A stretch of DNA of 64,000 nucleotides from Coniferiporia sulphurascens (lineage: Eukaryota; Basidiomycota; Agaricomycetes; Hymenochaetales; Hymenochaetaceae), in NCBI GenBank assembly GCA_002794785.1, contig NBBA01000010.1, positions 558,001 to 622,000 of the forward strand, read 5' to 3'. This document shows positions 5,245 through 64,000 of this stretch, one piece after another. The translations under genes were made by a program, and so were the position numbers. The stretch's first letter is position 1. Every line of letters starts with the position of its first letter. The notes beneath the pieces are model-generated. The model did not search any database and had not been told where the DNA came from. It saw nothing but the letters and a program-made list of their open reading frames with translations.

Positions 5245-5281
5245 TTGACTCTACAACTAACGAAATGATTATAATGAAACT

Positions 5282-10797: not shown

Positions 10798-10802
10798 AGT
10801 CT

Positions 10803-13691: not shown

Positions 13692-13812
13692 GTTAAACAC
13701 TCCCCATGCTACTTGATCTGCATCTTTACAGTGTTGGCATAGGTTCCTGGTATCAATTAGAGTTATGGGTCTTGCCATATCAATCACCACAATTTTCATC
13801 AATTTACTAACA

Positions 13813-18581: not shown

Positions 18582-18678
18582 GTTAGTAAATTGATGAAAA
18601 TCATGATTGCCGGATTGACGGATTAACAAGATTGACATGGAGAGACCCATAAATGTAATAGATACCCAGGGAATGTGT

Positions 18679-19002: not shown

Positions 19003-19008
19003 ATGTGT

Positions 19009-19602: not shown

Positions 19603-20036
19603 GTGGAATGACTCAATCTTAGTCCACAGTAATAAGTAATAAGCCACAACAAGATAAGATTCAGAAGGCTAGCATAAGTGCTGAGCCACACAAGTATATC
19701 TAAGTGTTCAGCTAAGAATAGCTGATGGAAGCATGGCAATCAATTGAAGATGCAATTGATGGGAGCCAAGTATAGCACATTGCACAGCAAGACCAATTAG
19801 GAAATCAGGAGAAGCATCATAGGTATAGGAATATCCAAGCTTGGTTACCTTAGATATTATACTGTATGACTCAATGGAAACTGGATGAAGGTTCTAGTAT
19901 AAGATAAAGATAGCATGGTAGGCTGTAGAATGTACCAGAATAGACTGTTGACTCATAGGACACTTAGTAATAGTTAAAACACATGTACAAGTGCATACTG
20001 GAATGTTCCTATGACTTATAAATCAATAGTAGTATG

Positions 20037-20849: not shown

Positions 20850-21084
20850 GTATTTAGTGGTACATACTAGAACATAGTAAATAGACTACAACATGTAGGG
20901 TATAAAAGCCCAACATAAAATTGTGGTAAAAAGCAGTTTAATTCATCTCTTGTCTCTTACCACCATCATCAGCTCTAACACTCTAGCAAGTGGAGGGTAA
21001 CAAGCCTACCCTAAACTAACTAGTATTATTGTGTGAATCTGTTATCACTTGTTTCTAACCCTTAATCAGGGAGTGAATCTAACA

Positions 21085-23985: not shown

Positions 23986-24204
23986 TGTTAGTAAATTGAT
24001 GAAAATTGTGATCGCTGGATCAACGGATTAGCAAGATCAACATGGCAAGACCCGTAACTCTAATTGATACCAGAAACCTATGCCAGTGCTGTAAAGATGC
24101 AGATCAAGTAGCATGGAAAGCGTTTAATATTGCATGTGTAACAGTAGGACAGAATGCAGGATACGACAACTGTCAAATTACATTCGATCATACTACAGGG
24201 GAAC
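23986..24204 (+). mobile_element. Element E, 5' fragment (E4)
   Basis: The first 219 bp of E (TGTTAGTAAATTG...), including the ATG at 24042 and 54 codons of the E protein up to DHTTGE. The Gypsy array LTR at 24205 cuts it. The rest of E does not reappear on the other side of the array. Confidence 0.9.
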
Positions 24205-24765
24205 TGTTACAATTTTCCCTTACTTTCCTCTCATTGCGCTGACTCACTTCCTCTTCATCATCATCAGTCAGCACAACTCCCCCATTTCCCTTCCTTACTC
24301 ATCCTTATTCACCTTGCACCATAAGACGCCATGATGACGCTATATCACATCACCATGACGTGCTTTGCTTACTGATACCTTCAACTGTATTACCAAGACC
24401 TTCCTTGGGTTTCCATGACCTTCCATAGCCATGTAAACGACCTTATACATGACCCTACAGTAGCAAACACATAGAGTAGCATATAAGCATGTAATGTAGA
24501 TCACACAAGCCCTAAGCTTGTGCTCTTTGTTCATACAAGCCCATTATCTGCTCCTCAGTGCCTTAGTGTGCACTCTACTACCACCAGTCACTTTGTTGTA
24601 ACCCAACACCTCTAAGAAACCTACCGCATCCACATCGCCGATCAGGAAGCCCCATCGCCGATCACCTTCGACTTACAACATCTAGGAAGCCCCATTGTCG
24701 TACTACCAGTCATTGCTGATCAGGAAGTCCCGACGTCGATCACCATGTAACCGTTGAGCTTAACA
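24205..24765 (+). repeat. Gypsy array LTR1
   Basis: 561 bp, TGTTACAATTTTCC...GAGCTTAACA. TATAAG is at 24482-24487. The presumed RNA 5' end AAGCTTGTGCT is at 24514-24524. Confidence 0.95.
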
Positions 24766-24767
24766 CT

Positions 24768-24778
24768 AGCACAAGCTT
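24768..24778 (+). promoter_or_regulatory. Gypsy G1 primer-binding site, probable self-priming
   Basis: AGCACAAGCTT starts 2 nt after LTR1 and is the exact complement of AAGCTTGTGCT in the LTR, which begins 32 nt after the TATA box, where transcription would start. This is the layout of Tf1/sushi-type self-primed retrotransposons, in which the RNA 5' end anneals to the PBS. Confidence 0.75.
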
Positions 24779-25087
24779 TCCCAAAAAATTTTTTGCTGAC
24801 ATATCCAATGTCCAAGCACCAACCCTCTGCCCAACCTGTCAACCAAACTTGCTATCCCGCAGCCCACCTACCCCATCATTGGAGGTACCTGGGACCATAC
24901 CCTCAAGTGCTTTAAGAAAAAGCAGACCAACTCGAACGACTACAACTATTACTCATGGTTACAGAACCTAAACAGAGAATTTCAGTGGTCCAAAGCCAAC
25001 AATGCTGACGACGCACATATTACCTTCGCGCAAAACATACCCGACTACTGCCTACTCTTCCCAAGGACCCAGACACCACCTCCCCAA

Positions 25088-26089
25088 ATGTCGACCACCA
25101 CTTCAGCACCCAAGGAGATCAACCTTGCCCGTCCCAATACCTTCGATGGGGACCACAAGTATGCCTGTCGCTTCTTATCCAGTTGCGAGGCGTACCTCCA
25201 TATCAACCGCCACATCTACACCTCTGATGAGTTGAAGATCAACTTTATCCTCTCCTATATGCAGACAGGAACTGCAGGAGATTGGGCCATCAACTGTGAA
25301 ATGCTCGCCTCCACCTTCACCAAGGACCCCAGCGGCAAGACTCTCACCACACTCGTAGGATATGGAATGTGGGGTGACTTTAAATGCGACTTCCACAACA
25401 CCTTCATCACCACAAATGACATCGCCGAAGCGTCTCAGGAAATCATGACTCTCCAACAGACTGGCTTGGCTGACGACTACAATAGTCATTTCCAGTCACT
25501 TGTAACCCGAGCAGGCATGTCAGGGGACAACAATCTCATCCCCATCTATGAGAAAGGTCTCAAACATGGCCTCCTGGCGCATGTTCTATCTAACGCCAAA
25601 CAGCCCACCACTATTGAGGAATGGTACCATGAGGCCTCCAAACAGGATGCTGTCTACCAACGACTCAAGGCCCTCCGTGGCCTGGGACAAGCTCCCATTA
25701 AACAAGAAAACCGTTTCTGTAACCTCGGCAACAACCAGCAATGCTGCCCATACCAGCCTAACCAGCGTGATATGCAGGTTAACGCTACTAACCGTCCACC
25801 ATGTCTCTCAGAAGAAGAATGTGCCAAATGCATGCATGAAGGACGTTGTCTTGCCTGTAGAGAGAAAGGCCACAATGCTCACGACTGCACCAAGTACCAG
25901 CAGGGACCCAGCCAACAGTGTATGGTCCGTACCATCGATAATGCATTCCCCATTGTCGAGACACCTGAACCCACTCTGGAGAACGATACTCCTGAGCACA
26001 TCGCTGCAAGCATCCATAACTTGCTCAGCCACTTCGACGAGACAAAGAAAGACAAGATCTTTGACATCCTGGATAAACAGGGTTTTTAA
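25088..26089 (+). CDS. Gypsy G1 gag
   Basis: 333 codons from the first ATG, with no internal stop. The protein contains a capsid-like region ([24 protein letters not shown]) and a cysteine motif near residue 265 ([14 protein letters not shown]) that fits a CCHC nucleocapsid knuckle. It ends KQGF-TAA on a slippery heptamer. The same frame is open and conserved with G2 for about 95 codons upstream of this ATG, with no other ATG, so translation may start earlier at a non-AUG codon. Confidence 0.88.
26080..26086 (+). promoter_or_regulatory. -1 frameshift slippery site G GGT TTT (G1)
   Basis: The heptamer GGGTTTT sits in the X XXY YYZ register of gag, immediately before the gag stop TAA (26087-26089). 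After a -1 slip the frame runs open (FLKRKLRQT...) into the protease. The same heptamer and register occur in G2 at 35607-35613. Confidence 0.7.
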
Positions 26090-29000
26090 AGAGGAAGCTT
26101 AGACAGACATTAAGTCTTCCTGTTACTATGTCTCCAATTGTAAATTCTGATCCTTCACTCCCTGCAATGAAGATCCCAATTTCTATGATTGTTTATGACA
26201 AAACCGTCCCCACCAATGTGCTCATCGACTCTGGCACTGAAGGCCAGTTTATCGATGCCAAATTCATTATCAAGTATCGCATACCAACACAAACGCTTGC
26301 CTGCCCCATTACTGTTCTTAATGTGGACAGATCCACCAACGAGCATGGAACCATCACCAAATACACATGGCGATTGGTTTGCATTGAGGGAAAATCTTTC
26401 CCTTCAAAGCTCCTAGTTACATCCCTAGGAAAGGAGGATATTATCCTCGGTTTACCATGGTTAAAAAACCATAACCCGGTTATTGATTGGAATAAAGGCA
26501 CTCTCACTATCACAAAAGTCACTACCGCTACCACACTTGCTCAGGAACGGGTCAAGGAAACGAAACCTGTGGAAGACATGATTCCACCCAAGTATCACCA
26601 GTACCTGGACATTTTCCATAAAAAGTCGGCAGAACAATTCCCCATATCTAGACCATATGATCACGCCATCAATCTCAAACCTGACTTCGTACCATGCAAC
26701 TGTAAAGTCTACCCACTGGCACCCAAAGAACTGGCCATGCTCGACGAATTCCTAGACGAAAACTTGCGTAAAGGCTACATCCGCCCATCCAAATCACCAA
26801 TGGCATCTCCTTTCTTCTTTGTCAGAAAGAAGGACACTAGCCTTTGTGGATGCCAGGACTACCGAGCCCTTAATGAGGGAACTATCAAGAACGCATACCC
26901 TTTACCCCTGATTAGTGATCTCATGGATAAACTCAAAGGAGCAAAATACTTCACAAAACTTGACCTTCACTCCGGCTACAATAACATTTGGATAAAAGAT
27001 GGCGATCAATGGAAAGCCGCTTTTAAAACTCCTTGAGGATTATTCGAACCAACCGTCATGTTCTTCGGGCTATGCAATTTGCCCACCACCTTCCAAGCAT
27101 TCATGGATGATACTTTCCACTTCATAATACTCAAAGACGGAACCATGATTTATATGGATGACGTACTCATCCCGGCAAACTCGATGAAAGAACTTTACCA
27201 ATGCACTTGCCAAATTCTGGATCTCTGTGCAGCCAATGATCTTTATTGCAAACCAGAAAAATGCCTATTCGGTGTACAACATGTCAAATTTCTGGGGATG
27301 ATCATCACCCCGGATAACATTCACATGGACCCTGTCAAACTGGCAGGCATTGCCGGTTGGCCCACCCTGCGAACGGTTAAACAGCTTCGAAGCTTTATGG
27401 GATTCTGCAATTACTACAGACATTTTATCCCCAGTTTCTCGGATATTGTATATCCACTTAACGAACTCACCCGCACCAATGAACAGTGGAAATGGACACC
27501 GGAAAGGGACCAAGTGTTTACGAAACTCAAAACATTATTTCTTGACAAACCGGCATTACTCGTACCTGACCCCACCAAGCCATTCATCCTTGAAACGGAC
27601 GCATCCAAAGTAGCCTCTGGAGCCGTGCTTTACCAAGCCAATTCAAATGGAGACTTACAGCCTTGTGGATATATTTCGGAGACATTCGGACCCACCCAAC
27701 AGTGCTACAAAGTTTATGACAGAGAACTTCTAGGGATAATACATGGCCTTGAAGCCTGGCGCCACTATCTACTTGGCAATCCACACACAACCACAATCTG
27801 GTGTGATCACAAGAACTTGTCATACTTCCGTTCGGAACACCGCTTAACCCCTAGACAATCACGATGGAATCTTTTCCTGTCTCAGTTCAATTGTGTAATC
27901 ACTCACCATCCGGGAAAGTCTATCCCTGGCACTGATGCACTATCTAGACGCCCAGATCATGGTGAGGAACCACTAGAAGAACATATTATGCTACCAGAGA
28001 CACTATTCATCGGAACAATCAATGTTGATCTCCAAAATCGCATCCAAAACGCCCAGGAAGGGGACTTGTTTGCAAAAACGATCCAGGATGCACGAGCCTT
28101 AAAAATCCCATCTCCTTTCTGATTCTCTCTTGATGACTGGACCATTGACTCTGATCTTCTCCGATACCAGAAACGGGTTTATGTACCAGACAACACAGAC
28201 ATTAAACGTGAAATCTTACAGATGTTCCATGACCTCCTGTCTTTTGGCCACCCAGGGGTATTTAAAACCTCCCAATTAGTGCGACAACACTATTGGTGGC
28301 CCGGCTTAACTGTATTTGTGGGGAACTACGTCAAAGGTTGCGTGGCATGCCAACAGATGAAAATCAACATGCATCCGACCAAACCACCCATGCTTCCGAT
28401 ACCCGCAGACGCCTCTATGCTCCCATTTCAATCGGTATCAATGGACTTTATTACCGATCTGTCTGCATCAAATGGATATGACTCCATAATGGTAGTAGTT
28501 GACCATGACGCTTCCAAAGGAATCGTCCTTATCCCCTGCCATAAGACGATTGATGCACTCAGAACAGCGAAGTGTTACCATGACAATGTTTATTGGCGTT
28601 TTGGACTCCCCAAATGCATTATCTCCAACTGGGGACCCCAATTCGCATCACAAGTCTTCCAAACGCTATGCAAGCGCCTCGGAATTAAGTCTAAACTGTC
28701 AACAGCCTATCACCCACAAACGGACAGACAAACTGAACATGCCAATCAGGAAGTAGAGGCTTATCTGCGCATTTATTGCGGCACATCGCCTCATTCCTGG
28801 GCCGACTTGCTTACGGATCTGGAGTTCTCACACAATATCCAGACTCATTCAGTTACCAAGACCTTGCCCTTCACCATCATGCTCAGGTACAACCCTATAC
28901 CCATCCCCTCGGTGATAGAAGACACTGATCTCCCATCTCTCTCACAGTGCCTGCACCTTCTTACATCAATCAGAAAAGAAGCACTCACCGCCCATGATCT

Positions 29001-29476
29001 AGCCTGCACCCATATGGCACGTTTCAGAGCATGAGGCTTCAAACCATTCAAACCTGGAGACAAGGTTTGGTTAGAAGCCACCAATTTGCATTTCCCCAAC
29101 CGCTCCCGCAAATTGTCGCCTAAACAGGAGGGACCATTTCCCATAGTTCAGGTATTATCACCCCTGAATTATCACCTCAAGCTCCCAGACACATGGCGCA
29201 TCCACCCCGTTTTCCATGCCTCGCTTCTTTTGGCTTACTCAGAGACCAAGGCACACAGACCTCCATTCAGTCAACCACCTCCTGACCTGATAGAAGATCA
29301 GCAGGAATATGAAATTGAGGCCATCATCTCTCACAAGGGCGCCAGGAACAGACGCCATTTCCTGGTCAAGTGGACCAGATACCCCTTGTCTGAAAATCAA
29401 TGGCTAGCCAAAAAAGACCTTTCACATGCTTCTGACATCCTAGAAACATATAAAACCCTCAAAAAAAATCACCTAA
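26087..29476 (+). pseudogene. Gypsy G1 pol with chromodomain, few stops
   Basis: In the -1 frame relative to gag. In order: protease with [11 protein letters not shown] (~26232), RT with YMDD at 27151-27162, RNase H with LETDAS (~27592), integrase H2C2 zinc segment (~28240-28350), integrase core with MDFITDL (~28441), a GPF segment, and a chromodomain (about 29311-29440) with YEIEAIISHK and FLVKW. This is the chromovirus type, which targets chromatin marks. Three in-frame TGAs interrupt it (27034, 28120, 29032), where G2 has CGC, CAT and CAA. An extra A in the run at 29460-29468 removes the stop seen in G2, so pol runs on into ORF3a. Confidence 0.9.
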
Positions 29477-30961: not shown

Positions 30962-32310
30962 TGTTAGATTCACTCCCTGAATGAGGGATTGAAGCAAGTG
31001 ATAACAGATTCACACAATAATACTAGTTAGTTTAGGGTAGGCTTGTTACCCTCCACTCGCTAGAGTGTTAGAGCTGATGATGATGGTAAGAGACAAGAGA
31101 TGAATTAAACTGCTTTTTACTGCAATTTTATGTTGGGCTTTTATACCCTACATGTTGTAGTCTATTTACTATGTTCTGGTAGATACTACAACATACTACT
31201 CTCGCTTTATAAGTCATAAGAATGTTCCGGTACAATCCTGTACATGCTATTTACTATTCTTAGCTTCTTATGAGTCAGTAAAATATTCCGGTATGTCCTA
31301 CAGCCTACCGTGCTATCTTTATCTTATGCCAGAACCTTCCTTGAGTTTCCATCGAGTCATACAGTATAATACCTAAGTTAACCATTCTCGGATACTACTA
31401 TACCTATGATGCTTCTCCTTATTTCCTAATTGGTTCTGCTGTGCAATGTGCTATACTTGGCTCCCATCAATTGTGTCTTCAATTGATTGCCATGCTTCCA
31501 TCGGCTATTCTTAGCCGCACACTTAGATATACTTGTGTGGCTCAGTGATTATGCTAGCCTTCTGAATCTTATCTTGTTGTGGCTTGTTACTTATTACCAT
31601 AGACTAAGATTGAGTCATACCTTCCATAATATCATTAAAAGGGGTTCATTCTGGTGTCCTATCGTCTACTGGCATAAAGAGCGCCTCAGGCCCTATAGCA
31701 TTTATATTTGTTATCCTGCTATACCCTGGTGTGACTCTATATGACGGTTCATCATTGAACCATCATATTATAATCTCTTTATCTATTGGTACTAACTCCT
31801 GTCTTTGGTTTGGTTCCTTTCGATCTACTGTTGTGTGTCCTTTGGCTATGAAGTTGGCTTTGTATGCGAATAGTTGTTCTCATAATTGTTTATTGATAGT
31901 ATGAACTATTTGGTGTGCCGCTTCTGCATAATCAGTTGATGTAATAACTGCCCTTTGATAACATAATTCATTATGTGGCTGATTATAAATCTTGGTTCTT
32001 GTATAAGTGCTGATTACATATCTATTCAATTGATATGAGAACATAGTCGCTCTATGTTCGATTATTACTTCTAGCCTTTCTGCTACTTGTTGTTCCCTTG
32101 TAGTATGATCGAATGTAATTTGACAGTTGTCATATCCTGCATTCTGTCCTACTGTTGCACATGCAATGTTAAATGCTTTCCATGCTACTTGATCTGCATC
32201 TTTACAGTGTTGGCATAGATTCCTTGTATCGATTAGAGTTACAGGTCTTGCCATGTCGATCTTGCTAATCCGTTGATCTGGTGATCATGATTTTCATCAA
32301 TTTACTAACA
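30962..32310 (-). mobile_element. Element E, copy E3 (1349 bp)
   Basis: An uninterrupted copy with exactly the own length of E5. Its 5' end is at 32310 and its 3' end at 30962. Flanks CATGC (30957-30961) and CACAC (32311-32315) both derive from CACGC by CpG loss on opposite strands. Removing it restores the ORF3b frame. Confidence 0.92.
31604..32254 (-). pseudogene. E-protein ORF of E3
   Basis: 217 codons, the same length as in E5, from ATG 32254 to TAG 31606-31604. It carries TRNLCQHC, AFNIACATVGQNAGYDNCQ and the DH motif, TGA at 31882-31880 at the position where E2 has CGA, and further TGAs downstream. Unknown function. Confidence 0.8.
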
Positions 32311-33754: not shown

Positions 33755-34300
33755 TGTTACAATTTTCCCTTACTTTCCTCTCATTGTGCTGACTCACTTC
33801 CTCTTCATCATCATCAGTCAGCACAACTCCCCCATTCCTCTTCCTTACTCATCCCTATGTCACCTTACACCATAAGATGCCATGATGACGCCATATCGCA
33901 CCATCATGACGTGCTTTGCTTACTGATGCCTTCACCTGTATTACCAAGACATTCCTTGGGTTTCCATGACCTTCCATAGCCATGTAAACAACCTTATACA
34001 CGACCCTACAGTAGCAAACACACAGAGTAGCATATAAGCATGTAACTTCGGTAGCACAAGTCCTAAGCTTGTGCTCTTTGTTCATACAAGCCCATTATAT
34101 GCACCTCAGTGCCCTCTGTGTGCTATACCTCCTCATCTGGCACTTCGTCATAACCTGACTCCTCTAAGAAGTCTACCGTGTCCACATCGTCGATCTGGAA
34201 GCCCCACCGACAATCCTCTTCGACTTACAGCATCTAGGAAGCCCCGTTGCCATAACCACCAGACCCGACATTGATCACCATGTAACCGTTGAGCTTAACA
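33755..34300 (+). repeat. Gypsy array LTR2 (shared)
   Basis: 546 bp. TATAAG at 34033-34038 and AAGCTTGTGCT at 34065-34075, again 32 nt apart. It follows the polypurine tract of G1 and precedes the primer-binding site of G2. Confidence 0.95.
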
Positions 34301-34302
34301 CT

Positions 34303-34313
34303 AGCACAAGCTT
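34303..34313 (+). promoter_or_regulatory. Gypsy G2 primer-binding site, probable self-priming
   Basis: AGCACAAGCTT, 2 nt after LTR2, exactly complementary to AAGCTTGTGCT at 34065-34075 in LTR2. Confidence 0.75.
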
Positions 34314-34620
34314 TCCCAATTTTTTTTGCTGACGTACCCAACGTCCAAGTACCAACCCTCTGCCCAACCTGTTGACCAAGATTTCCATCCCACAGCCCAC
34401 TTACCCCATTGTCGGTGGTACCTGGGACCACACCCTCAAGTGCTTTAAGAAAAAGCAAACCAACCCGAATGACTACAACTACTACTTGTGGTTACAAAAC
34501 CCAAACGGAGAATTTCAGTGGTCCAAAGCCAATGACGCAAACGACGTGCAAATCACTTTCGCGCAAAATGTACCCAACTACTGGCTACTCTTTCCAAGAA
34601 CCCAGACCCCACCACTACAA

Positions 34621-35616
34621 ATGTCGACTCCCACACCCAAGGAAATCAACCTTGCCCATCCCAACACCTTTGATGGGGACCGCAAGTACTCATGCAGATT
34701 CCTCTCAAGCTGTGAAGCATACCTTCACATCAACCAACACATCTACACCTCTGATGAGTTGAAAATCAACTTTGTCCTCTCCTATATGCAAACAGGGACT
34801 GCAGGAGATTGGGCCATCAACTGCGAAACGCTCGCCTCTGCCTTCGCTAAAGACCAAAGTGGCAAGGCCCTCACCACCCTCGTTGGATACGGAATGTGGG
34901 GTGATTTCAAATGCGATTTCCGCAACACCTTCATCACTACCGATGACACTGCCGAAGCCTCTCAGGAAATCATGACGCTCCAACAGACTGGCCCGGCCGA
35001 CAATTATAACAGTCGTTTCCAGTCTCTTGTAACCAGAGCTGGCATGTCGGGGGACAACAACCTCATCCCCATCTACGAGAAAGGCCTCAAGCACGGCCTC
35101 CTGGCACGCATTCTATCCAACACCAAACCACCCACCACCATTGAGGAATGGTACCATGAGGCCTCAAAACAGGACACCATCTACCAACGACTCAAGGCCC
35201 TTCATGGCCTGGGACAATCTCCCAGTAAACAAGAAAACCGCTTCCGTAATCTCGGAACCAACCAGCAGCGCCATACCTACCAGCCTAACCAGCATGGTAC
35301 ACCGGTTAATGCGACCAACTGCCCACCATGCCTCTCTGAGGAAGAGTGGGCCAAATGCATGTGTGAAGGACATTGTCTCACCTGCAGAGAGAAAGGCCAC
35401 AACACTTGAGACTGTACCAAGTACCAGCAGGGACCCAGCCAACAGCACATGGTCCGCACCATCGATAATGCGTTCCCCATTGTTGAAGCCCCTGAGCCAA
35501 CTCCGGAGAACGCATCACCCAAGCACATCGCCACAAGCATCCATAACCTGCTCAGTCACTTCAACGAAGCAAAGAAAGACGAAATCTTTGACATCCTGGA
35601 TAAACAGGGTTTTTAA
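34621..35616 (+). pseudogene. Gypsy G2 gag, one TGA
   Basis: 332 codons from the ATG matching that of G1, ending on the slippery site at 35607-35613. TGA at 35407-35409 interrupts the nucleocapsid knuckle (CREKGHNT-stop-DC). The in-frame upstream extension conserved with G1 runs open from about 34335. Confidence 0.88.
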
Positions 35617-38600
35617 AGAGGAAGCTTAGATGGACATTAAGTCTTCCTGTTACCATGTTTCCAATTGTAAATTCCAATCCTTCACTCCCTGCAATGAAGA
35701 TCCCAATTTCTATGATTGTATATGACCAAACCATCCCCACCAATGCACTCATCGATTCAGGTGCTGAAGGCCAGTTCATCAATGCGAAATTTGTCATCAA
35801 GCATCGCATACCAACACAAACACTTGCCCGTCCCATTACAGTTCTAAATGCGGATGGATCCACCAACGAGCATGGAACCATCACCAAGTATACATGGCGA
35901 TTGGTTCGCATCAAGGAAAAAGCACTTCCCATGAAACTCCTTGTAACATCTTTAGGTAAGGAAGACATCATCCTCGGCCTACCATGGTTAAAGAACCATA
36001 ACCCAGTTATCAATTGGAACAAAGGCACTCTCACTATCACAAAAGTCACTACTGCTACCATGCTTGCTCAGGAACAGGTTAAAGAAATAAAACCTGTGGA
36101 AGGCATCGTTCCACCTGAATACCACCGGTACCTCAACATCTTTCGAAAGAAAGCTGCGGAACGATTCCCAATCTCCAGGCCATATGACCACACGATTGAT
36201 CTCAAACCAGACTTCATACCACGTGACTGTAAAGTCTACCCACTGGCACCTAAAGAACTAGCAGCACTTGATGAATTCCTAGACGAAAATCTACACAAAG
36301 GGTATATCTGCCCCTCCAAATCACCCATGGCATCTCCTTTCTTCTTTGTCAGGAAGAAGGACACTAGCCTCTGCAGATGCCAAGATTATCGAGCCCTTAA
36401 TGAAGGAACCATTAAGAACGCCTACCCGTTACCCCTAATCAGCGATCTCATGGACAAACTTAAAGGAGCCAAATACTTTACGAAACTTGACCTCCGCTTG
36501 GGCTACAATAACATTCGGATAAAAGATGGTGACCAATGGAAAGCCGCTTTTAAAACCCTGCGCAGATTATTCGAACCAACAGTCATGTTTTTCGGCTTAT
36601 GCAATTCGCCAGCCACATTTCCAGGCCTTCATGGATGATACCTTCCATTTTGTAATCCTCAAAGACAGAACCATGATCTATATGGATGATGTACTTATCC
36701 TGGCCAACTCACTGGAAGAACTTTACCAACGCATGTGCCGCATTCTGGATCTCTGCGCCACCAATTGTTAAGCTCAACGGTTACGCGGTGATCGACGTCG
36801 GGGCTTCCTGATCGTCGGGACTGGTGGTTACGGCAATGGGGCTTCCTAGATGTCGTAAGTCGGAGGTGATCGTCGGCAGGGCTTCCTGATCGACGATGTG
36901 GATGCGAGGTGCTTCTTAACTGAGTCGGGTTATGACAAAGCGACTAGTGGCCAGGTGGCTCACAGTAGACTGGTGGTAGCAGATAATGGGCTTGTATGAA
37001 CAAAGAGCACAAGCTTAGGGCTTGTGCTACTGAAGTTACATGCTTATATGCTACTCTATGTGTTTGCTACTGTAGCGACTTGGTTAGGTGTGTTTACCAG
37101 CCTATGGAAGGTCATGGAAACTCAAGGAAAGCCTTGGTAATACAAGTATGGTGATCAGTAAGCAAAGCACGTCATGATGGTGCAATAAGGCGTCATCATG
37201 GCGTCTTATGGCACAAGGCAAATGAGAATGAGTAAGGCAGAGAAATGGGGGAGTTGCGCTGACTGATGATGACGAAGAGGAAGCGAGTCAGCGCAGTAGG
37301 GGAATAATAGAGGAAAATTGTAACACCAATGATCTCTACTGCAAACCAGAGAAATGCCTATTTGGGGTACAACGCGTCGAATTCCTGGGTATGATCATTA
37401 CCCCGGACAACATCCACATGGATCCAGTCAAACTTGCTGGCATCACTGATTGGCCCATCCCGAAAACTGTTAAACAGCTCTGAAGCTTTATGGGATTCTG
37501 TAATTATTACAGGCGCTTTATCCCTAGCTTCTCGGACATCGTATGCCTGCTTAACAAACTCACCTGTACCAAGGAACCATGGAAATGGACACCTGAACGA
37601 GACCAAGCGTTCACTAAACTCAAAACACTCTTTCTAGATAAACCGGCCTTGCTTGTACCTGACCCCACCAGGCCATTTATCTTGGAAACTGATGCATCAA
37701 AAGTTGTGTCGGGTGCCGTCCTCTATCAAACAAACTCAAATGGAGATCTACAACCATGTGGATATATTTCGGAAACATTTGGACCCGCCCAACAACGGTA
37801 CGAAGTCTATGATCGAGAACTTCTTGGCATAATATGTGGCCTCGAAGCATGGCACCACTACCTACTTGGCAACCCACACACCACCACAATATGGTGTGAT
37901 CACAAAAACCTGTCGTACTTCAGATCAGAACGCCGGTTAACCCCGAGACAATCACGATGGAATCTATTTCTTTCCCAGTTCAACTGTAAAATCACTCACT
38001 GCCCAGGAAAGTCCATTCCCGGTGCTGATGTGCTATCTAGACGCCCTGATCATGGCGAAGAACCACTGGAAGAATGTATTATGCTACCAGCGACACTATT
38101 CATTGGAACAATTAATATTGATCTCCAAAACCATATTTGAGACGCCCAGGCAAGCGACTTGTTCGCAAAAACGATCCAGGATGCATGGGTTTTAAAAATT
38201 CTGTCTCCTTTCCATTTCTCTCTCGATGACTGGACCACCGATTCCGGCCTTCTCCGATACCAGAAACGGGTTTATGTACCAGACAATGCCGAAATCAAAC
38301 GTGAGATCTTGCAAATGTTCCATGATCTTCCATCCTTTGGCCACCCGGGGGTATTCAAGACCTCTCAATTAGTGCGACAACACTATTGGTGGCCCAGCTT
38401 AACGGTATTTGTAGGAAACTACATCAAAGGCTGTGCCACATGTCAACAGATGAAAATCAATACACATCCGACTAGACCGCCAATGCTTCCAATCCCCATG
38501 GATGCATCCATGCTCCCATTTCAATCGGTCTCCATGGATTTCATTACTGACCTACCCACATCTAATGGATATGATCCCATAATGGTAGTAGTGGATCATG

Positions 38601-39568
38601 ACACTTCGAAAGGAATCATCCTTATTCCTTGTCACAAGACCATTGATGCTCTCAGAACAGCAAAGTGTTACCATGATAATGTCTACCAGTGCTTCAGTCT
38701 TCCCAAATGCATCATTTCTGATTGCAGACCACAATTTGTGTCACAGGTATTCCAGACATTGTGCAAACACCTCGGTATTAAATCTAAACTGTCAACGGCT
38801 TACCACCCTCAAACCGATGGGCAAACTGAATGCGCCAATCAGGAAGTAGAAGCATATCTGCGCATTTATTGCGGCACTTTGCCTCACTCCTGGGCTGACT
38901 CACTCATGGACCTGGAATTCTCACACAATATCCAAACCCATTCAGTTACCAAGACATCACCATTCACCATCATGCTTGGGTACAACCCTATACCCATCCC
39001 CTTGGTAATAGAAGATACCGATCTCCTGTCCCTCTCACAGCACCTGTGCCTTCTTTCATCAATCAGGAAAGAAGCGCTCACCACCCATGACCTAGCCCGC
39101 GCCCACATGGCACATTTCGGTGCACAAGGCTTCCAACCATTCAAAGTTGGTGACAAGGTTTGGTTAGAAGCCACCAATTTGCATTTTCCCAACCGCTCCC
39201 GCAAATTATCACCTAAACGAGAGGGACCATTTCCCATAATTCAGGTACTATCACCCCTGAATTATCGCCTCAAATTGCCAGATGCATGGCGAATCCACCC
39301 TGTTTTCCACGCCTTGCTTCTTTCGGCTTACTCAGAGACCAAGGCACATGGACCTCCATTCAGTCAACCACCTCCTGACCTGATCAAAGACCAACAGGAA
39401 TATGAAATCGAGGCCATCATCTCCCACAAAGGTGCCGGAAACAGACAATGTTTCCTAGTAAAATGGACCAGTTACCCATCCTCCGAAAATCAATGGCTAG
39501 CTGAAAGAGACCTTTCACATGCTTCCGACCTTTTAGACATGTATAAAAACCTCAAAAAAATCACCTAA
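35614..39568 (+). pseudogene. Gypsy G2 pol with chromodomain, frameshifted
   Basis: Same order as in G1: protease LIDSGAEGQFI, RT with YMDD at 36679-36690, RNase H, H2C2 zinc segment, integrase core, GPF, chromodomain. It is broken by an extra T at about 36620 (TTTCCAGGC where G1 has TTCCAAGC), a GyL at 36766, TGA at 37481-37483 where G1 has CGA (27388-27390), and TGA at 38138-38140. The C-terminal part (38159-39568) is open through the chromodomain to TAA. Confidence 0.9.
36766..37325 (-). repeat. Solo GyL LTR in G2 RT
   Basis: 560 bp, antisense, with TSD CCAAT at 36761-36765 and 37326-37330. Confidence 0.95.
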
Positions 39569-39597
39569 CTTCCTGCATTTGCTCCACCTCCACTCGA

Positions 39598-40047
39598 ATG
39601 ATCACTGCCCACATCACCCACCACAATCATCTCTGGTACCTTGCTATCGTCATCCCCGGAGGTATCATTGTCCTCATCTACGCTATCAACCTCATCACCC
39701 ACCCTCGCCCTATGCCACCAGTCTCCCGTCTTCGCTTCCCAACCATCGCCAACTGCCGCCCCGTATCCCCTCTGCTTCCTCTCCAGAACCCTCAACCCCA
39801 ATTCCGCTGACACGAGTTCATTGACCGACCCAGAGTCCCAACCAGGCAGGATGTCCTTGCACAACTCCAATGCACATTCCTGGCAGACTTCCCCACTGCC
39901 TCACACATTTCTCATGTTGAGATCAACCCCTTAGTGCAGGTCTACGACATCCATCCTTTCGAAGTACCCCCCACCAAACTCCTTCTCACTCTCGCTGACA
40001 TCCACACCCGAGCAGTTCACAACCATGAACTCCTCCAACAACAATGA
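39598..40047 (+). pseudogene. Gypsy G2 ORF3a, membrane-anchored accessory protein
   Basis: 150 codons, starting 30 nt after the pol stop. Residues ~11-32 (LWYLAIVIPGGIIVLIYAIN) form one hydrophobic, probably membrane-spanning segment. Then come PRPMPPVSRL, RPRVPTRQDV and the block HPFEVPPTKLLLTLADIHT, conserved with G1. A single TGA at 39808-39810 breaks it. The stop overlaps the start of ORF3b by 23 nt. No known family recognised. Confidence 0.78.
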
Positions 40048-41338
40048 GACTGACTCGGAATACCATTGCCGTCACCAGCGCACTACTCGGAGACACTACC
40101 CCCAGCCCCACCACCCACTTATCAGTCTGCCACCCAGGACTGTCCTCCAGCATATCCTGGGGGCCCCGGACTTGGACACAGAGGTCAACTGCCTCCTCTC
40201 CACCCATCCGAGAGCGACCCAGGTCAACCGGATGCACCAATGCCTGCGCACAGTGGAGGACATGCAGCACCTGGTGTGGCACGCCCAGGAACTAATGGAG
40301 CTGCTTGAGTCTCGCTTGGGTAATCTGGTCGATGATCTCTGCCTGCTGCGCAACACTGACTATGAGTCGCTTGAGGAGGAGGACATTCATACGGTACTCG
40401 TCCCCCTCCATCCGCAAGCTCACCTCTACCGCCCAGCTCCTCAACCGCCACTCGTCCTGACCACACCCCCGACACCCGTGATCACTCGTCACAACTCCGC
40501 CACTCAGACGGAGCCTCGACCTATCTTGGTTCAACCCCCCTCCCAGTCATCGTCCTCGTCATCCTCGCACACGCACTGCTCCGTGTGCATGTCACCCGCC
40601 CACCTCACCACCTACTGCATGCAGTACATCTGCCCTTGGTGCAATGAGGCTGCACCCGGCCACCCCCCAGGCAACTGCCCTCGCCACAGCCATCAATCGA
40701 CATCCCCCCCCCCTCTGGCACCAGCATCCACTCCAGATGAGAACATCCCACCCCTGTTACAAATTTCCCTTACTCATCGCATTTATCAGCATTAGTCATC
40801 ACTGATGACTAATCCACTTTATATGCTGAATGATCCTAGCCCCATGATCAGTTAGACTCTTCTACTAGCTTCCATCCCCTTCCATGCTGACTGATCCTTG
40901 TCTTTGCTCAGTCAGCCTTCCACCTTGTTCCATAGTGTTCTATGCATGTATATAAGAACTTGCTTTCAGAGCACTAAGCCTTAAGCTTGTGCTCTTTGTT
41001 CAATAGAGCCTACTCGTTCACTATCTCCTCTATGGGATACTAAGTCACCAGTCACCAAGCCCACCAGTCTACTAGTCCTTGGGGAAACCCTTGCTCAATT
41101 GTTGCCTCATCTCTACCTTGTCTTACTTGGTTGATCTTTGTTGATCACTTATTAAGCCTTACTTAATCAGTAGGCTTAACAACCCCCTCCTACTGCACCA
41201 ACAAATGGTAGGCACCTGGTACGACTCTCTAATCTCAGGGCCCGCGTCCTTGTACAGGCCTACATGGATGACATAGTGGTGGGAATCAATCTCGATGACA
41301 TGGACATGGGTTCCAACAATGACGACCTCTCCAATTAG
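40025..41338 (+). CDS. Gypsy G2 ORF3b, zinc-motif accessory protein, interrupted by an LTR
   Basis: 293 aa once the GyL-b LTR (40755-41181, plus TSD; 432 nt, so in frame) is removed. A helical middle region (TVEDMQHLVW...LLESRLGNLVDDL) and a Pro/Ser-rich linker precede a zinc-type motif CSVCMSP...YICPWCNEAAPGHPPGNC at residues ~185-220. It ends NNDDLSN-TAG at 41336. No internal stop other than the insertion, unlike G1. The AYMDDI string near the end is not an RT motif in this context. Role unknown; the zinc motif suggests nucleic-acid or protein binding. Confidence 0.8.
40755..41181 (+). repeat. Solo GyL-b LTR in G2 ORF3b
   Basis: 427 bp, sense, TGTTACAAATTTCC...AGGCTTAACA, with TSD ACCCC at 40750-40754 and 41182-41186. 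It keeps TATATAAG and AAGCTTGTGCTCTTTGTTC at the GyL spacing although the rest of the LTR has diverged. Confidence 0.95.
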
Positions 41339-55670: not shown

Positions 55671-57564
55671 AGGACAGCAGATCTAGATACTCAAAGCGAT
55701 CTTAAATATTAGCCAAAACAGTCTAACTTTCCAGGCAAATATAGTCCAATTTAGTTTAGTTTGTTATTTTTTGTAATACATGTTCTGATTTGTGTGTTTC
55801 ACTTCGACCTGTGTGGTGAGCGATAGCGATCAGGGCAAAAAACCTCGTATATAACAAGGCGTTTCCAGTGCGAGGATTGAAAACCCCACATTGAAAAGGG
55901 GAGAAACTCAATGTGGTATGGGAAAGTGAGTGCTAATTTAAAGCATATTTTCATTGCCTTGACATCGGGTATACACATACAGGCGATCCTCTCGAAAAGG
56001 CGTAGATGTCTTGAGGGACTCTGTTACTGGTGGTCCTTCCAGGACTGACATAGGTGGCGTAAGAGCCATTGGCCTTTCGCCAAATGCGCATATAGTAACT
56101 GGCACTACCAAACGCCATGATATACTAAGATGCTCGCATCTTACAATCGGAGTTCCAGATAATGGATCTGTTCACGTATCACGACATAGCGATATAGTGG
56201 ATGCACGTCCGTTCAAGAAGTCCAGGTCTGCTTTTACCGATGTATTACAGGCTTCCATCTACTTTACTGTTGCCAGTGTTTATTAACGTCCTTCATCTTA
56301 GGATGAAGACATTGCGGAAGATGGAGATGTCGGAGAAGACGGTGTACTTGCTGAGAACATATGCGAAGGTGAGGAGGAGTTTCATGTTATGTGTTCTCAA
56401 GTGGGTTTTATAAGTTTAAGCTTGATAGCTCTCTTAACTCTTTATAGACTTCAGAAGAGTTGCTGGAGGACTTTCTGCCAAAGAAGTCGACTATCCAAGA
56501 GGCTATCTTATCCCAGGAGTTCAGCATGGGGGTAGGTAGCCCGTGTCTGTGTGGGAGTGGACACACATGGCTATTCCAATGCGTTGATTGTGATGTTAGA
56601 AAGGTCATGTGTAAGGCATGCATTTTAATTGACCACACATGTAGTCTCTTCCACTGGGTGCAGCGCTGGACAGATTCACATTTTGTAAAGGTGGATCTGT
56701 CTGAATTGGGTCTTTTTGTCTGTCTGGGTCACGAAGGCGACTGTTGCAAATGGACAAGTCTCCTAGCAGCAAAGGCACTGTGTGTAGTGGACGTGAATGG
56801 CATACATGAGGCTAAGGTCGTGTATTGTGAATGTCCCAGACAAGGAGCTGAATATATTCAGTTAATCCAATGGGGATTGTTCCCAGCATCTGTGAATGTG
56901 CCTGAGTTGGCCTTCACTTTTCGCTGTCTTCATGAATTTCATATCCATACTAATTCGTCTCGGAAGTCCGCTTTTGATTACATGAAGGCAATCGAGCACC
57001 TGACCAACGATGACGATCCATCATCAGTTTCGGTAAGTCCCTTTTGCCACACTCCTGTATTGCCTTGAGGCTTATTATGTTGTCAAGACGGCAATAACAC
57101 AATTTACACATATCGCGCATTTATGGCATTATCTATCTGCAGAGCATGAAAGCGGACAGTCACTTGGTATTGATGGTCATATCCACTTTAGGCCTGAGGG
57201 TTCGTTTGCTGAGGTTTGCATGGCCTGTCCTATTTATGAAGTAAATATGCCTCGGACAATGTCAATTCCTGAAAGTGAGGATATTCCGACGCTGGTCTCC
57301 TCTGAGAGTTTGGCGGATCCAATACCGGAGCCTTGCGGTGCATTAGTACAGGACAAGCCGTACATTCTGTTTTATTATCAATGGTAATTCTCTGCATTTA
57401 ATACATGTTTACAGGCATCTGGACACTCTATACTTGTGCATGGATGGTAATTTCAAGCTCATTAACCTTGAAAAAAATAATAATTTGTATGAGACCATGC
57501 TCTGGAATTGTTAGTAAATTGATGAAAATCGTGATCACCAGATCAACGGATTATCAAGATTGAC

Positions 57565-58215
57565 ATGGCAAGACCCGTAACTTTAATTGATACCAGGAAC
57601 CTGTGCCAACACTGTAAAGATGCAGATCAAGTGGCATGGAAAGCATTTAACATTGCATGTGCAACAGTAGGACAGAATGCAGGATATGACAACTGTCAAA
57701 TTACATTTGATCATACTACAAGGGAACAACAAGTGGCAGAAAGGCTAGAAGTAATAATCGAACATAGAGCAACTATGTTCTCATACCAATTGAATAGATA
57801 TGTAATCAGCGCTTACACAAGAACCAAGATTTATAATCAGCCACATAATGAATTATGTTATCAAAGGGCAGTTATTACATCAACTGATTATGCAGAAGCA
57901 GCACACCAAATAGTCTATACTATCAATAAACAATTATGAGAACAACTATTCGCATACAAAGCCAACTTCATAGCCAAAGGACACACAACAGTAGATCAAA
58001 AGGAACCAAATCTAAGACAGGAGTTAGTACCAATAGACAAAGAGATTATAATATGGTGGTTCAATGATGAACCTTCATATAGAGTCACACCAGGGTATAG
58101 CAGGATAACAAATATAAACGCTATAGGACCCGAAGCACTCTTTATGCCAGTAGACGATAGGACACCAGAACAAACCCCTTTTAATGATACTATGGAAGGT
58201 ATGACTCAATCTTAG
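57565..58215 (+). CDS. E protein (216 aa, one TGA), unknown LTR-encoded protein
   Basis: The ATG is 57 bp into E5. The protein shows TRNLCQHCKDADQVAWKAFN, then QNAGYDNCQITFDHTT, a helical middle, INKQL-TGA-EQLFAY, AKGHTTVDQ, then PSYRVTPGYSRITN and VDDRTPEQTPF before the stop. The CxxC and later C...DH residues could bind zinc. TGA at 57937-57939 takes the place of Arg (CGA) in E2; translation may stop there (124 aa). Its H homologue keeps LCxxC, AFN, AGYxNCQxTxDH, AKGxTT and DDRTP, so these are the functional core. No signal peptide or membrane segment. Function unknown; retroviral LTR genes such as sag show that a U3 ORF can be expressed. Confidence 0.8.
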
Positions 58216-58331
58216 TCTACGGTAATTGTTAGGAATTGATGAATAAGCTTGTTTACAAGCTTAGACAATGATACCAGCAACTACCAATACAGGAAGGGAC
58301 TCCCACAGACACCATCCAGCGATCATTCAAC

Positions 58332-58997
58332 ATGGGGACAGAACTAACTAGAAAACCAGGACTTCTTGGGAACATCAGGCCAATCATGATGCTCAAGCGA
58401 CCGCTAAAGACTCTTGACACATCAAGACTCTGCCACCAATGCTGGACCACATACAATCAATCATGGGAAGCATTTAACATGGTAATAACTGAATGCTTTT
58501 ACATGGCAGGGTACATGAACTGCCAGGTAACTACAGATCACGCTGTAGACCCTATAGGCGATGGCACGGAGGTCAGGGTAATGCACATGATACAAATGTA
58601 CATCTTTGATATACAGGAGTTTTTGCACAACATCCATGTCCAGATGATAGTGAACCCACACATACATGACAAGGAATGTGACCTACAAGTGGTCTCAGGA
58701 TCCTTCCCGTACAGGACATTGCAGGACAACACATTCCTAGCTAACGCTCACCAATTACGCACAAAAGTAATCACCCTCTTCGAGAATCTATCAGCAAAGG
58801 GATCGACGACCGCCAATCAACAGATCGGCAATGTTAATCTTTACATGATAACACTATGGTTATCAAATGGATCACCCCTGGCGCCACCTCCAGGATACAT
58901 GCGATGTATCGCTAGGATAAACCACATTAACGAACCACTGGATAACATGATCGACGACAGGACACCAACTGAAAGGTACCCACCTATGGACCTTTAG
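58332..58997 (+). CDS. H protein (221 aa), intact homologue of the E protein
   Basis: One uninterrupted ORF. It shares with the E protein the order DTSRLCHQCW...WEAFN, then AGYMNCQVTTDH, LFENLSAKGSTTANQ, then PPGYMRCIARINHIN and MIDDRTP, but the rest differs strongly, so the similarity is ancient rather than copying. The N-terminal ~27 residues have no counterpart in E. Being the only stop-free member here, it is the best guide to the protein. Predicted soluble with a possible zinc site from CxxC and C...DH; no known family. It lies in the U3-like part of H on the transcribed strand. Confidence 0.85.
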   Translation: MGTELTRKPGLLGNIRPIMMLKRPLKTLDTSRLCHQCWTTYNQSWEAFNMVITECFYMAGYMNCQVTTDHAVDPIGDGTEVRVMHMIQMYIFDIQEFLHNIHVQMIVNPHIHDKECDLQVVSGSFPYRTLQDNTFLANAHQLRTKVITLFENLSAKGSTTANQQIGNVNLYMITLWLSNGSPLAPPPGYMRCIARINHINEPLDNMIDDRTPTERYPPMDL

Positions 58998-59442
58998 CCG
59001 ATATCGCATTACGTGATTAAGCCACACTCGGCAGGAACCAAAGCGCTTACCGAAGCCAGCCACAAACTCTAAAAAGACAATTGTCCAAGTCGACAGGATA
59101 ACATGGAGGAACCAGTACAGGAGACCAACAAGACAAGTCAATGACTTACCAATCATCAAGCTGTTAGGCAGCATCTTAACAAGAAGCCACTGGCACATAA
59201 GACTACAGGGTAGCATGCAGAACAGTGGGGCGACATGCACAGCCTAAGCATCATGGTGAAGTCATTATGACACCTATGACTTCACTATGAGCTCAGTGGA
59301 GCCAAGTGGAGTGTAGTGGAGCGCATGACATGCAGTGGAGCTCAGTGGAGCACCAACGGCCAATCGTAGATAGTTATTTCTCATATGATCCTCTAATGAG
59401 GTCATTTGCACTGGTATGCAGCTCCAAGTCAGTGGAGCTTAT

Positions 59443-60003
59443 TGTTACAATTTTCCTTTACTTTTACCTTACTGCGCTGACTCACTTCCTCTTCATCATC
59501 ATCAGTCAGCGCAACTCCCCCATTTCTCTGCCTTACTCATTCTCATTTGCCTTGTGCCATAAGATGCCATGATGACGCCTTATTGCACCATCATGACGTG
59601 CTTTGCTTACTGATAGCCCTACTTGTATTACCAAGGCATTCCTTGGGTTTCCATGACCTTCCATAGTCTGGTAAACTACCCTACACAGGCCGCTACAGTA
59701 GTAAACACATAGAGTAGCATATAAGCATGTAACTTCAGTAGCACAAGCCCTAAGCTTGTGCTCTTTGTTCATACAAGCCCATTATCTGCTACCACCAGTC
59801 TACTGTGCGCCAGTGTGCCACCAGTCGCTTCGTCATAACCCGACTTACTCTCAGAAGCCTACCACATCCACATTGTCGATCAGGAAGTCCCCTCGATGAT
59901 CATCTCCGACTTATGACATCTAGGAAGCCCCGTTGCCGTAACTACCAGTCTCGATGATCAGGAAGCCCCGACGTCAATCACCGCATAACCGTTGAGCTTA
60001 ACA
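59443..60003 (+). repeat. Solo GyL LTR in H
   Basis: 561 bp, sense, with TSD CTTAT at 59438-59442 and 60004-60008. Nesting here is four deep: GyL in H in E5 in the KDZ gene. Confidence 0.95.
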
Positions 60004-60087
60004 CTTATGATGACACTGTGAGATGTCATAGCTCCAACTGCAGAGCCTTGTGGAGCATCCACTTTCAAGCGGAGCTTCTTCTTCATG

Positions 60088-60095
60088 TATATAAG
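60088..60095 (+). promoter_or_regulatory. H promoter TATA box
   Basis: TATATAAG, 180 bp before the 3' end of H, on the same strand as the H ORF. Confidence 0.6.
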
Positions 60096-60719
60096 GAGGG
60101 CCTAGACCAGCCTAGACCCCCAGTTTAATTCACCTTCTCAATTCTCTCAGACTTCTCCTGAGCAAAGTACCAACATCTACTGACTTATTCTTGACTCAAT
60201 CACACACCTCAACTCTATCTCAACTACTTGTTCCATTGGCTAACCACGGTTACCCTTGGTCCTAACAGTAATAAGTAACAAGCCACAATAAGATAAGATT
60301 AAGAAGGCTAGCATAATCACTGAGCCACACAAGTATATCTAAGTGTTTGGCTAAGAATAGCCAATGGAAGCAGGGTGATCAATTAAAGATGTGATTGATG
60401 GGAGCCAAGTATAGCACATCGCACAGCAGGACCAATTAGGAAATAAGGAGAAGCATCATAGGTATAGTAGTATCCAAGAATGGTTAACTTAGATATTATA
60501 CTGTATGACTCAATGGAAACTCAGGGAAGGTTCTGGCATAAGATAAAGATAGCATGGTAGGCTGTAGAATGTACCGGAATATGTAACTGACTCATAAGAA
60601 GCTAAGAATAGTAAATAGCATGTACAGGATTGTACCAGAACATTCTTATGACTTATAAATCAAGAGTAGTATGTTGTAGTAACTACCGGAACATAGTAAA
60701 TAGATTACAACATGTAGGG

Positions 60720-60727
60720 TATAAAAG
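60720..60727 (+). promoter_or_regulatory. E promoter TATA box
   Basis: TATAAAAG, 184 bp before the 3' end of E5. TATAAAAG is also present in E1, E2 and E3. Transcription would start about 30 bp downstream and leave the element at its 3' end, as from an LTR. Confidence 0.65.
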
Positions 60728-61285
60728 CCCAATGTAAAATTGCAGTAAAAAGCAGTTTAATTCATCTCTTGTCTCTTACCACCATCATCAGCTCTAACAC
60801 TCTAGCAAGTGAAGGGTAACAAGCTTACCCTAAACTAACTAGTATTATTGTGTGAATCTGTTATCACTTGTTTCAATCCCTTCTTCAGGGAGCAAATCTA
60901 ACAGGAATGGTAGGGGTTACCTATGTGCCAAAGAGCCCTTGGACGTGCATGTAAAGAAGCATGTGAATATTAAGGTTGAGGTGTGCCTATTTATCTCGAC
61001 ATATGTGTGTTGCCATTAACTAAGTCTCCTGTAGAAAGGAAAATGCAAAGAGTTTACCACAATGGAGAATTGGAATTCTTTAAAATATGACAAGCAAACG
61101 GTTTCCGGAGTCATCATGACCATATGTCGCCATGGTCTCATTCGACCCGATTGTGCCGTCAACCTTACAAAGGGGGAAAAGTGAGTGTCTCACAACTGCT
61201 TTCATATTCCGTATCTGCATTGACCGCTTAAATCAGATTCATAATGGGGGATTGCTCACTGCAAGGTGCTTTGCAAACGACTGAG

Positions 61286-62517: not shown

Positions 62518-64000
62518 TGTTAGATTCGCTCCCTGATTAAGGGTTAGAAACAAGTGATAACAGATTCACACAATGTTACTAGTTAGTTTAGGGCAGGCTT
62601 GATACCCTTCACTCGCTAGAGTGTTAGAGCTGATGATGGTGGTTGTTACAATTTTCCTTTACTTTTCCTTATTGTGCTGACTCACTTCCCCTTCGTCATC
62701 ATCAGTCAGCGCAACTCCCCCATTTCTCTACCTTACTCATCCTTATTCACCTTGCACCATAAGATGCCATGATGACGCCTTATTGCACCATCATGACGTG
62801 CTTTGCTTACTGATAGCCCTACTTGTATTACCAAGGCATTCCTTGGGTTTCCATGACCTTCCATAGTCTGGTAAACTACCCTACACAGGCCACTACAGTA
62901 ACAAACACCTAGAGTAGCATATAAGCATGTAACTTCAGTAGCACAAGCCCTAAGCTTGTGCTCTTTGTTCATACAAGCCCATTATCTGCTACCACCAGTC
63001 TACTGTGTGCCTACTGGCCATTAGTCACTTTGTCGTAACCCGACTCACCTCCGAAGCATACTGCGTCCACATCGTCGATCAGGAAGCCCCCTCGACAATC
63101 ACCCTTGACTTATGACATCTAGGAAGCCCCATTGCCGTACCATCAGTCCCGACAATCAGGAAGCCCCGACGTTGATCACCGCATAACCATTGAGCTTAAC
63201 AGTGGTAAGAGACAAGAGATGAATTAAACTGCTTTTTACCGCAATTTTACGTTGGGCTTTTATACCCTACATGTTGTATGCTATTTACTATGTTCTGGTA
63301 GATACTACAACATACTACTCTTGCTTTATAAGTCATAGGAATATTCTGGTACAGTCCTGTACATGCTATTTACTATTCTTAGCTTCCTATGAGTCAGTCA
63401 TATATTCCGGTACATTCTACAGCCTACCGTGCTATCTTTATCTTATGCCAGAACCTTCCTTGAGTTTCCATCAAGTCATATAGTATACTACCTAAGGTAA
63501 CCATTCTCAGATACTACTATACCTATGATGCTTCTCCTTATTTCCTAATTGGTTCTGCTGTACAATGTGCTATACTTGGCTCCCATCAATTGCATCTTCT
63601 AATTGATTGCCATGCTCCCATCGGCTATTCTTAGCCGAACGCTTAGATATACTTGTGTGGCTTAGCGATTATGCTAGTCTTCTTAATCTTATCTTGTTGT
63701 GGCTTGTTACTTATTACCGTAGACTAGTATTGAGTCATACCTTCCATAATATCATTAGAAGGGGTTCGTTCTGGTGTTCTATCGTCTACTGGCATAAAGA
63801 GCACTTCAGGTCCTATAGCATTTATATTTGTTATCCTGCTATATCCTGGTGTGACTCTGTACGAAGGTTCATCATTGAACCACCGTATTATAATTTCTTT
63901 ATCTATTGGTACTAACTCCTGTCTTAGATTTGGTTCCTTTTGATCTACTGTTGTGTGTCCTTTGGCTATGAAGTTGGCCTTGTATGCGAATAGTTGTTCT
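62518..64000 (-). mobile_element. Element E, copy E6 (runs off the right edge)
   Basis: Minus orientation, 3' end TGTTAGATTCG at 62518, preceded by CTGTC. A GyL is inserted at 62644-63201. The copy runs to the window edge; the visible part stops within the coding half of the ORF (the region encoding EQLFAY... reads on the minus strand at 63600-64000), so the 5' end is outside. Confidence 0.88.
62644..63201 (+). repeat. Solo GyL LTR in E6
   Basis: 558 bp, sense, with TSD GTGGT at 62639-62643 and 63202-63206. Confidence 0.95.

Follow-up and report, generated by a model that had tools for sequence, protein, structure and literature searches.

A protein gene in the U3 region of long terminal repeats from the fungus Coniferiporia sulphurascens, and their probable chromovirus parent

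Long terminal repeats (LTRs) are usually taken to be non-coding control regions, and solo LTRs to be dead scars. A 64,000-nucleotide stretch of DNA from the basidiomycete Coniferiporia sulphurascens (positions 558001–622000 of contig NBBA01000010.1, here C10; assembly GCA_002794785.1, 39.35 Mb in 31 contigs), hereafter the window, holds two families of repeats, E and H, that look like solo LTRs and carry a protein-sized open frame. What kind of element are they, and is the frame a gene? An earlier note, made from the sequence alone, had offered two answers: solo LTRs of unusual length whose U3 (unique 3') region holds a gene, or a separate class of non-autonomous element that moves a small protein gene. 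Our analysis favours the first. E is very probably the LTR of a chromodomain-containing Ty3/Gypsy retrotransposon (a chromovirus) with an accessory U3 gene, and H and a third, E-related family, X, the LTRs of sister lineages.

Anatomy of a nested E and H locus

In the nested locus, with element boundaries set by eye from the sequence, the copy E5 spans 57509–60903 and is interrupted by an H element (58227–60267, plus strand). The first part of E5 (57509–58226, plus strand) starts with TGTTAGTAAATTGATGAA and covers U3 including the gene, a frame of 216 codons plus stop (57565–58215, plus strand) with a single in-frame TGA at codon 125 (57937–57939). The second part (60268–60903, plus strand) ends in AATCTAACA, and the 5-bp target-site duplication (TSD) GGAAT can be read from the sequence on both sides (57504–57508 and 60904–60908). 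H has TG...CA ends, is flanked by the TSD GTAAT (58222–58226 and 60268–60272) and carries an intact frame of 221 amino acids plus stop (58332–58997, plus strand). It is itself split by a Gypsy-type solo LTR (59443–60003, plus strand; 561 bp, TGTTACA...TTAACA, TSD CTTAT), which was inserted into H and is not H sequence; subtracting this LTR and its TSD leaves an H length of 1475 bp. There is no gag, reverse transcriptase (RT) or integrase inside E or H, as the earlier note had said.

The core promoters occupy 60088–60132 in H and 60720–60764 in E5, both on the plus strand, with TATA boxes TATATAAG at 60088 and TATAAAAG at 60720. These lie 180 bp from the H 3' end and 184 bp from that of E5, with the frame upstream, which agrees with the spacing of about 180 bp given in the earlier note. 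The 12-mer CAGTTTAATTCA is identical in E and H and stands 33 bp past the TATA position in both (60121–60132 in H; 60753–60764 in E5). All 6 of its occurrences in the window fall in E, X or H copies, and a shuffled control at one mismatch gave a mean of 0.58. Across the 43 complete copies, counted as distinct via their flanking 10 bases, TG...CA ends are found in 42 and an exact 5-bp TSD in 22, versus 17 of 1806 non-self combinations (some of the 17 coming from pairs with swapped TSDs, described below). Further copies read by eye gave exact TSDs in 7 of 10 and 3 of 8. The ends and TSDs claimed for the two families are thereby borne out, with the reservation that E5 and H have a TSD while E2, another copy in the window, does not. 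Likewise, the claim that each copy carries an open frame holds for H and for E copies elsewhere (a 222-amino-acid stop-to-stop frame at locus L039), but not for E5, with its one TGA, nor for E2, with three.

At the sequence level, the promoter and R/U5 layout of E and H fits that of a solo LTR, and the selected open frame lies wholly within U3, as delimited by the TATA position. Because the sequence ahead of the ATG is short (56 bp in E, 105 bp in H) and the visible core promoter is directed away from the gene, a solo copy would have no evident promoter for it.

One gene family in three LTR families

The E and H proteins align over approximately 200 amino acids with approximately 28% identity. 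When two H proteins are aligned with one of E and one of X type, 36 columns are invariant, including the motifs C-x2-C, A-G-Y-x-N-C, A-K-G-x-T-T and D-D-R-T-P, some of which are lost in single other copies. A Cys/His pattern (C-x2-C, C, H, H, H-x3-C) is conserved in all four members; judged by eye, a spaced D-D-E is absent from their invariant columns.

Divergence follows the codon structure. Among 14 distinct E copies, it is 4.05, 3.41 and 10.75% at codon positions 1, 2 and 3 and 6.63% outside the frame; the corresponding values for 27 H copies are 4.61, 5.29 and 9.15%, and 5.46%. The pooled ratio of nonsynonymous to synonymous differences per site (pN/pS) is 0.162 for E (0.96 and 1.20 in the shifted frames) and 0.330 for H (0.96 and 0.72); since copy pairs are non-independent, no p-value is attached. 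Distinct gap intervals number 0 within the E frame versus 8 outside it, and 4 versus 16 for H, and the corresponding ratio of substitution rates (dN/dS) between E and X is 0.30–0.31. With transversions only, E retains an excess at position 3 (0.319, 0.729 and 1.722% at positions 1 to 3). H has none (0.207, 0.286 and 0.201%), so that its selection signal depends on transitions.

That 32 of the 41 copies checked contain 1 to 4 stops would suit the idea that the frame arose by chance or is a captured fragment with no function. We consider this hardly credible, given the contrast in pN/pS with the shifted frames, the fact that E and H share the same protein, and an open homologous frame outside the assembly (P0001, below). 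Moreover, 45 of the 48 stops are TGA, a predominance that may reflect later C-to-T decay of methylated CGA codons. On these sequence measures, the E/H frame is a real gene family, kept intact by purifying selection as the elements spread.

Database searches gave little. Pfam yielded no significant match for the frames at E ≤ 1 (best 0.03) and no transposase or integrase, the identity that the earlier note had named as fatal to its proposal; PHROGs gave no match, NCBIfam a single family far under its cut-off, and PDB sequences no match at E ≤ 1. Against 5.8 billion predicted proteins, the H protein had no relatives among 36 candidates and the E protein one among 29, P0001, an open frame of 199 amino acids on a 698-bp ENA contig that is 59% identical to E and belongs to the X group. 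Because P0001 is at most 86% identical to every copy scored in this assembly, it likely comes from another genome. Beyond P0001, the protein has no significant match in the databases searched and would constitute a new family, with E, X and H members, whose part in retrotransposition is open to experiment.

The absence of known relatives bears on a further explanation, in which E and H would be mobile on their own, either as self-contained units of one LTR or as DNA transposons, with the 220-residue protein as helper or small transposase. Each unit has a single gene, short inverted ends and a fixed TSD, and the coding frame shows selection, all of which is in keeping with it, as is the top Foldseek match of the H model, to endonuclease V, an RNase H-like protein (E 0.018). 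The predicted structures, however, have a mean pLDDT (predicted local distance difference test score) of 42.5 and 44.1, which makes fold matches meaningless: a Foldseek search of the H model against PDB and BFVD returned nothing at E ≤ 0.001, and we disregarded the endonuclease V match, which was the best, along with the faint ones to RAD52 and ERF. Neither Pfam, NCBIfam, PHROGs nor PDB offered a notable match, and no DDE transposase domain was found. The core promoter faces outward from its place close to the 3' end, and one E copy is joined to a polypurine tract and a pol frame, as described in the next section. We regard either form of this explanation as very improbable.

The gene is present in many copies. 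A pattern for the E 3' end has 195 genome matches at ≤1 mismatch (1 for the reversed control). In the protein searches, the counts from which are lower bounds, the best 150 of 325 candidates for E were scored and are all E-type, at 84–100% identity. For H, the best 150 of 319 candidates include at least 97 H-type matches, of which at least 62, the query itself counted, cover at least 218 of the 221 residues, the others being pieces; the remainder are E- or X-type at 27–32% identity. The X group comprises at least 22 matches that are 72–86% identical to P0001. Two other frames (C1:248670–249236 and C23:154234–154800) are 65% identical to P0001 and may form a further subfamily.

A chromodomain pol frame next to an E copy

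If E is an LTR, its inside should have left traces in the flanks. Two 5' flanks, from locus L053 (E, on C14) and locus L044 (H, on C2), match at 82% over 50 bp, in the same orientation and directly before the LTR. Both read CAAAATTTGA(T/C)CTTA, followed by a purine-rich run immediately 5' of TGTTAG. The tract CCAAAATTTGAYCTTARRRRGGGTGG plus TGTTAG occurs at three genome sites at ≤3 mismatches (control 0), namely C2:526655 (H), C2:700918 (E) and C14:498453 (E). Purine-rich sequence precedes the TG in 9 of 62 5' flanks, the tract itself being common only to the L053 and L044 flanks. In 55 distinct 3' flanks, there is no boundary stretch in common in the same orientation, save in two segmental duplicates. 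Other same-orientation flank matches (18 on the 3' side, 32 on the 5' side) lie mostly away from the boundary, and we ascribe them to widespread repeats present where the elements inserted.

The 321 bp preceding the C14 E copy (C14:498459–498779) have one other copy in the genome, 90% identical, at C2:700630–700940. This falls within C2:697601–700943, where a pol frame of 873 amino acids in total, with Integrase_H2C2, rve (41.4 bits; cut-off 32.6), SH3_Tf2-1 and Chromo (52.2 bits; cut-off 25.1) domains, runs to the polypurine tract. The frame is interrupted by a reverse H copy (698988–700473, TSD GGAAC), with its phase unchanged on both sides, and stops at 700876, 67 bp ahead of an E copy (700944–702289) that has the orientation of a 3' LTR and an unbroken U3 frame of its own (C2:700997–701641). 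In our reading, the C2 locus represents the 3' half, E LTR included, of a Ty3/Gypsy element with a chromodomain. This parent, which we take to be a chromovirus, moved the LTR reading of E from probable to very probable. It supports the proposal of long solo LTRs with a U3 gene and makes a separate non-autonomous element class less likely than before. H and X may once have had the same kind of inside.

The earlier note had also suggested looking for a direct pair of E (or H) copies around gag and pol. On the 3' side, the pol frame and tract next to E provide this in part. Upstream, a same-strand E copy at C2:689608–690956, adjoined on its left by an unrelated integrase piece (688969–689583), may be the 5' LTR of the parent, which would also have had a primer-binding site; the integrase at C2:697739 is the sole one of 150 scored matches with same-strand E copies on both sides within 12 kb. 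Several observations weigh against our reading. The outer flanks of this C2 pair (GAAAC versus CAGGC) do not match as a TSD, and the stretch 3' of the upstream copy occurs only once. Among the 92 matches scored for the parent integrase, one copy exceeds 50% identity and the next is at ≤50%, so that a single parent integrase stands against 195 E 3'-end matches, a very lopsided ratio. In addition, the H remnant at L044 has approximately 208 bp of inside up to an inverted H partner, without pol; its tract is all that is known.

This imbalance invites another explanation, in which most E, X and H copies derive from non-autonomous two-LTR elements resembling terminal-repeat retrotransposons in miniature (TRIMs), with the U3 gene as their only gene and the C2 chromovirus as a helper, or a recombinant that took up an E LTR. 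It would account for two sites with an inside versus 195 3' ends, for a gene under selection while the pol family is almost absent, and for the modules swapped between families (below). There is also a fungal parallel: the Helenus TRIMs are reported to measure 311–1263 bp overall, to have a tRNA-like sequence in the LTR and, like E and H, to occur in many copies with 5-bp TSDs, some families as solo LTRs only (PMC10886601). E and H differ from them in having longer LTRs with a protein gene. ARAGORN found no tRNA in the window. However, no two-LTR copy with a short inside is present among the sites listed, and the closest direct E pair (C2:1026940–1030132) has separate TSDs. On balance, we think a TRIM-like origin unlikely.

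Like chromoviruses, the E parent has integrase, SH3_Tf2-1 and chromodomain in one frame, a polypurine tract before a TG...CA LTR, and a 5-bp TSD; unlike them, the E and H LTRs are 1.35–1.48 kb long and contain a selected protein gene in U3. To our knowledge, no chromovirus with a protein gene in the LTR U3 has been described. A full-text literature search turned up no fungal LTR with a U3 protein gene, although subscription papers lay mostly outside its coverage, so that absence from print is unproven. The betaretrovirus mouse mammary tumour virus (MMTV) has the sag gene in its LTR U3. As in E and H, sag lies on the transcribed strand, 5' of the TATA box; the host of E and H is a fungus, and the likeness drawn here is one of layout. 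A U3-gene layout of animal retroviruses would thus recur in a fungal Ty3/Gypsy element. The RNA would begin close to CAGTTTAATTCA within the 5' LTR and extend through gag-pol to the U3 gene, which would lie towards its 3' end like sag in MMTV, and the protein may act somewhere in the life cycle of the element. Integration would create the 5-bp TSD, and LTR–LTR recombination would then remove the inside, leaving solo LTRs nearly everywhere.

A second chromodomain family (L042 5214–6540, C11:714006, C7:1744236 and C7:1750872) is approximately 40% identical to the parent integrase. At L042, AAGGAGGGGGTAG and TGTTATG come after the frame, indicating that this family has a different LTR.

Solo copies, inversions and mosaic LTRs

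Apart from the three tract sites, the copies examined are solo. Among the matches listed, 58 same-family neighbour pairs lie less than 25 kb apart, 22 direct and 36 inverted, and the 9 with equal scores are all inverted (chance 0.0088), as are three further equal-score pairs obtained by the P0001 query only. Partners are 99.9–100% identical at L039 and L043, 99.1–99.3% at L041 and L051, and 94.9% at L053. At L041, L043, L051 (with one mismatch), C14:83416/108797 and C26:109914/129257, the TSDs are swapped between partners, which shows that the segment between inverted copies was flipped by crossover. Direct partners would be deleted by the same process, which may explain both the few direct pairs and the solo state. 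In the C18 pair (L040), at least 390 bp of 5' flank are in common, pointing to an inverted duplication.

We reject the idea that the inverted pairs are composite elements with inverted ends. At L039, the partners each have their own TSD (GTCAT; CTTGA) and different hosts, by eye a Gypsy RT in one case and a hAT-like frame in the other; at L041, L043, L051 and the C14 and C26 pairs, the swapped TSDs are the mark of crossover. Five same-strand E pairs were likewise rejected as full elements, since no outer flanks match by eye; of their ten copies, seven have their own exact TSD, one a 4/5 TSD and two none. Separately, a segmental duplication relates C14 (approximately 83–110 kb) to C26 (approximately 109–131 kb), with the flipped H pair inside and 400-bp flanks that are 96–97% identical (L027/L049, L028/L050). 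At L047 (1584–3946), one E copy is inserted into a second and one side is missing, a structure that recombination between direct copies would leave.

Compared in 75-base steps, E and X are 64–84% identical over most of the gene and 85–97% over most of the LTR 3' of it, with a dip to 72–83% at 976–1125 and one X copy at 60% at the 5' end. A variant at L052 has the reverse pattern, with 85–96% over the gene, 55–81% at 676–975 and 89–92% beyond, the lowest step falling at a piece boundary and being unsure. It thus looks as though the gene and the remaining LTR sequence have separate histories, an outcome expected of template switching. A bolder proposal is that the LTRs of E, X and H, each of which has its own form of the gene, spread and exchange modules mostly independently, with enzymes provided by the chromovirus, that the protein is a new retroelement factor and that the LTR, not pol, is the unit selected; this seems to us doubtful, if worth stating. 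What we see here is that at least three related LTR families carry one gene, once under purifying selection and with a history unlike that of the rest of the LTR. For annotators, multi-copy orphan genes in fungi may be pieces of LTRs.

The window contains further copies of these families. E2 (30962–32310, minus strand) is an uninterrupted E copy of 1349 bp, E1 (11157–13785, minus strand) is interrupted, and an X-type copy (18581–21084, plus strand) has a divergent gene, approximately 60% identical, and two interruptions. A fragment at 23986–24204 (plus strand) corresponds to E positions 1–219, truncated by a Gypsy LTR, and E6 (62518–64000, minus strand) is cut by the window end and a Gypsy LTR (62643–63201), its frame C10:621730–622377 being stop-free.

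The Gypsy elements of the window, with LTRs of approximately 561 bp, lie at 24205–29034, 33755–36638 and 38141–40795 (labels by eye), with gag- and pol-like frames, also by eye, after the LTR at 24205 and 33755. They share TGTTA...TAACA ends and a 5-bp TSD with E and H, but their LTR is short and without a gene. An extra frame at 39935–40795, downstream of a pol-like frame in the position of env, has a look-alike at L039 (4993–5826). Finally, an element labelled Copia-type by eye occupies 4153–10800; it has TGTATATAAGG boxes and short terminal repeats, and a Gypsy LTR (4418–4979) splits the left repeat.

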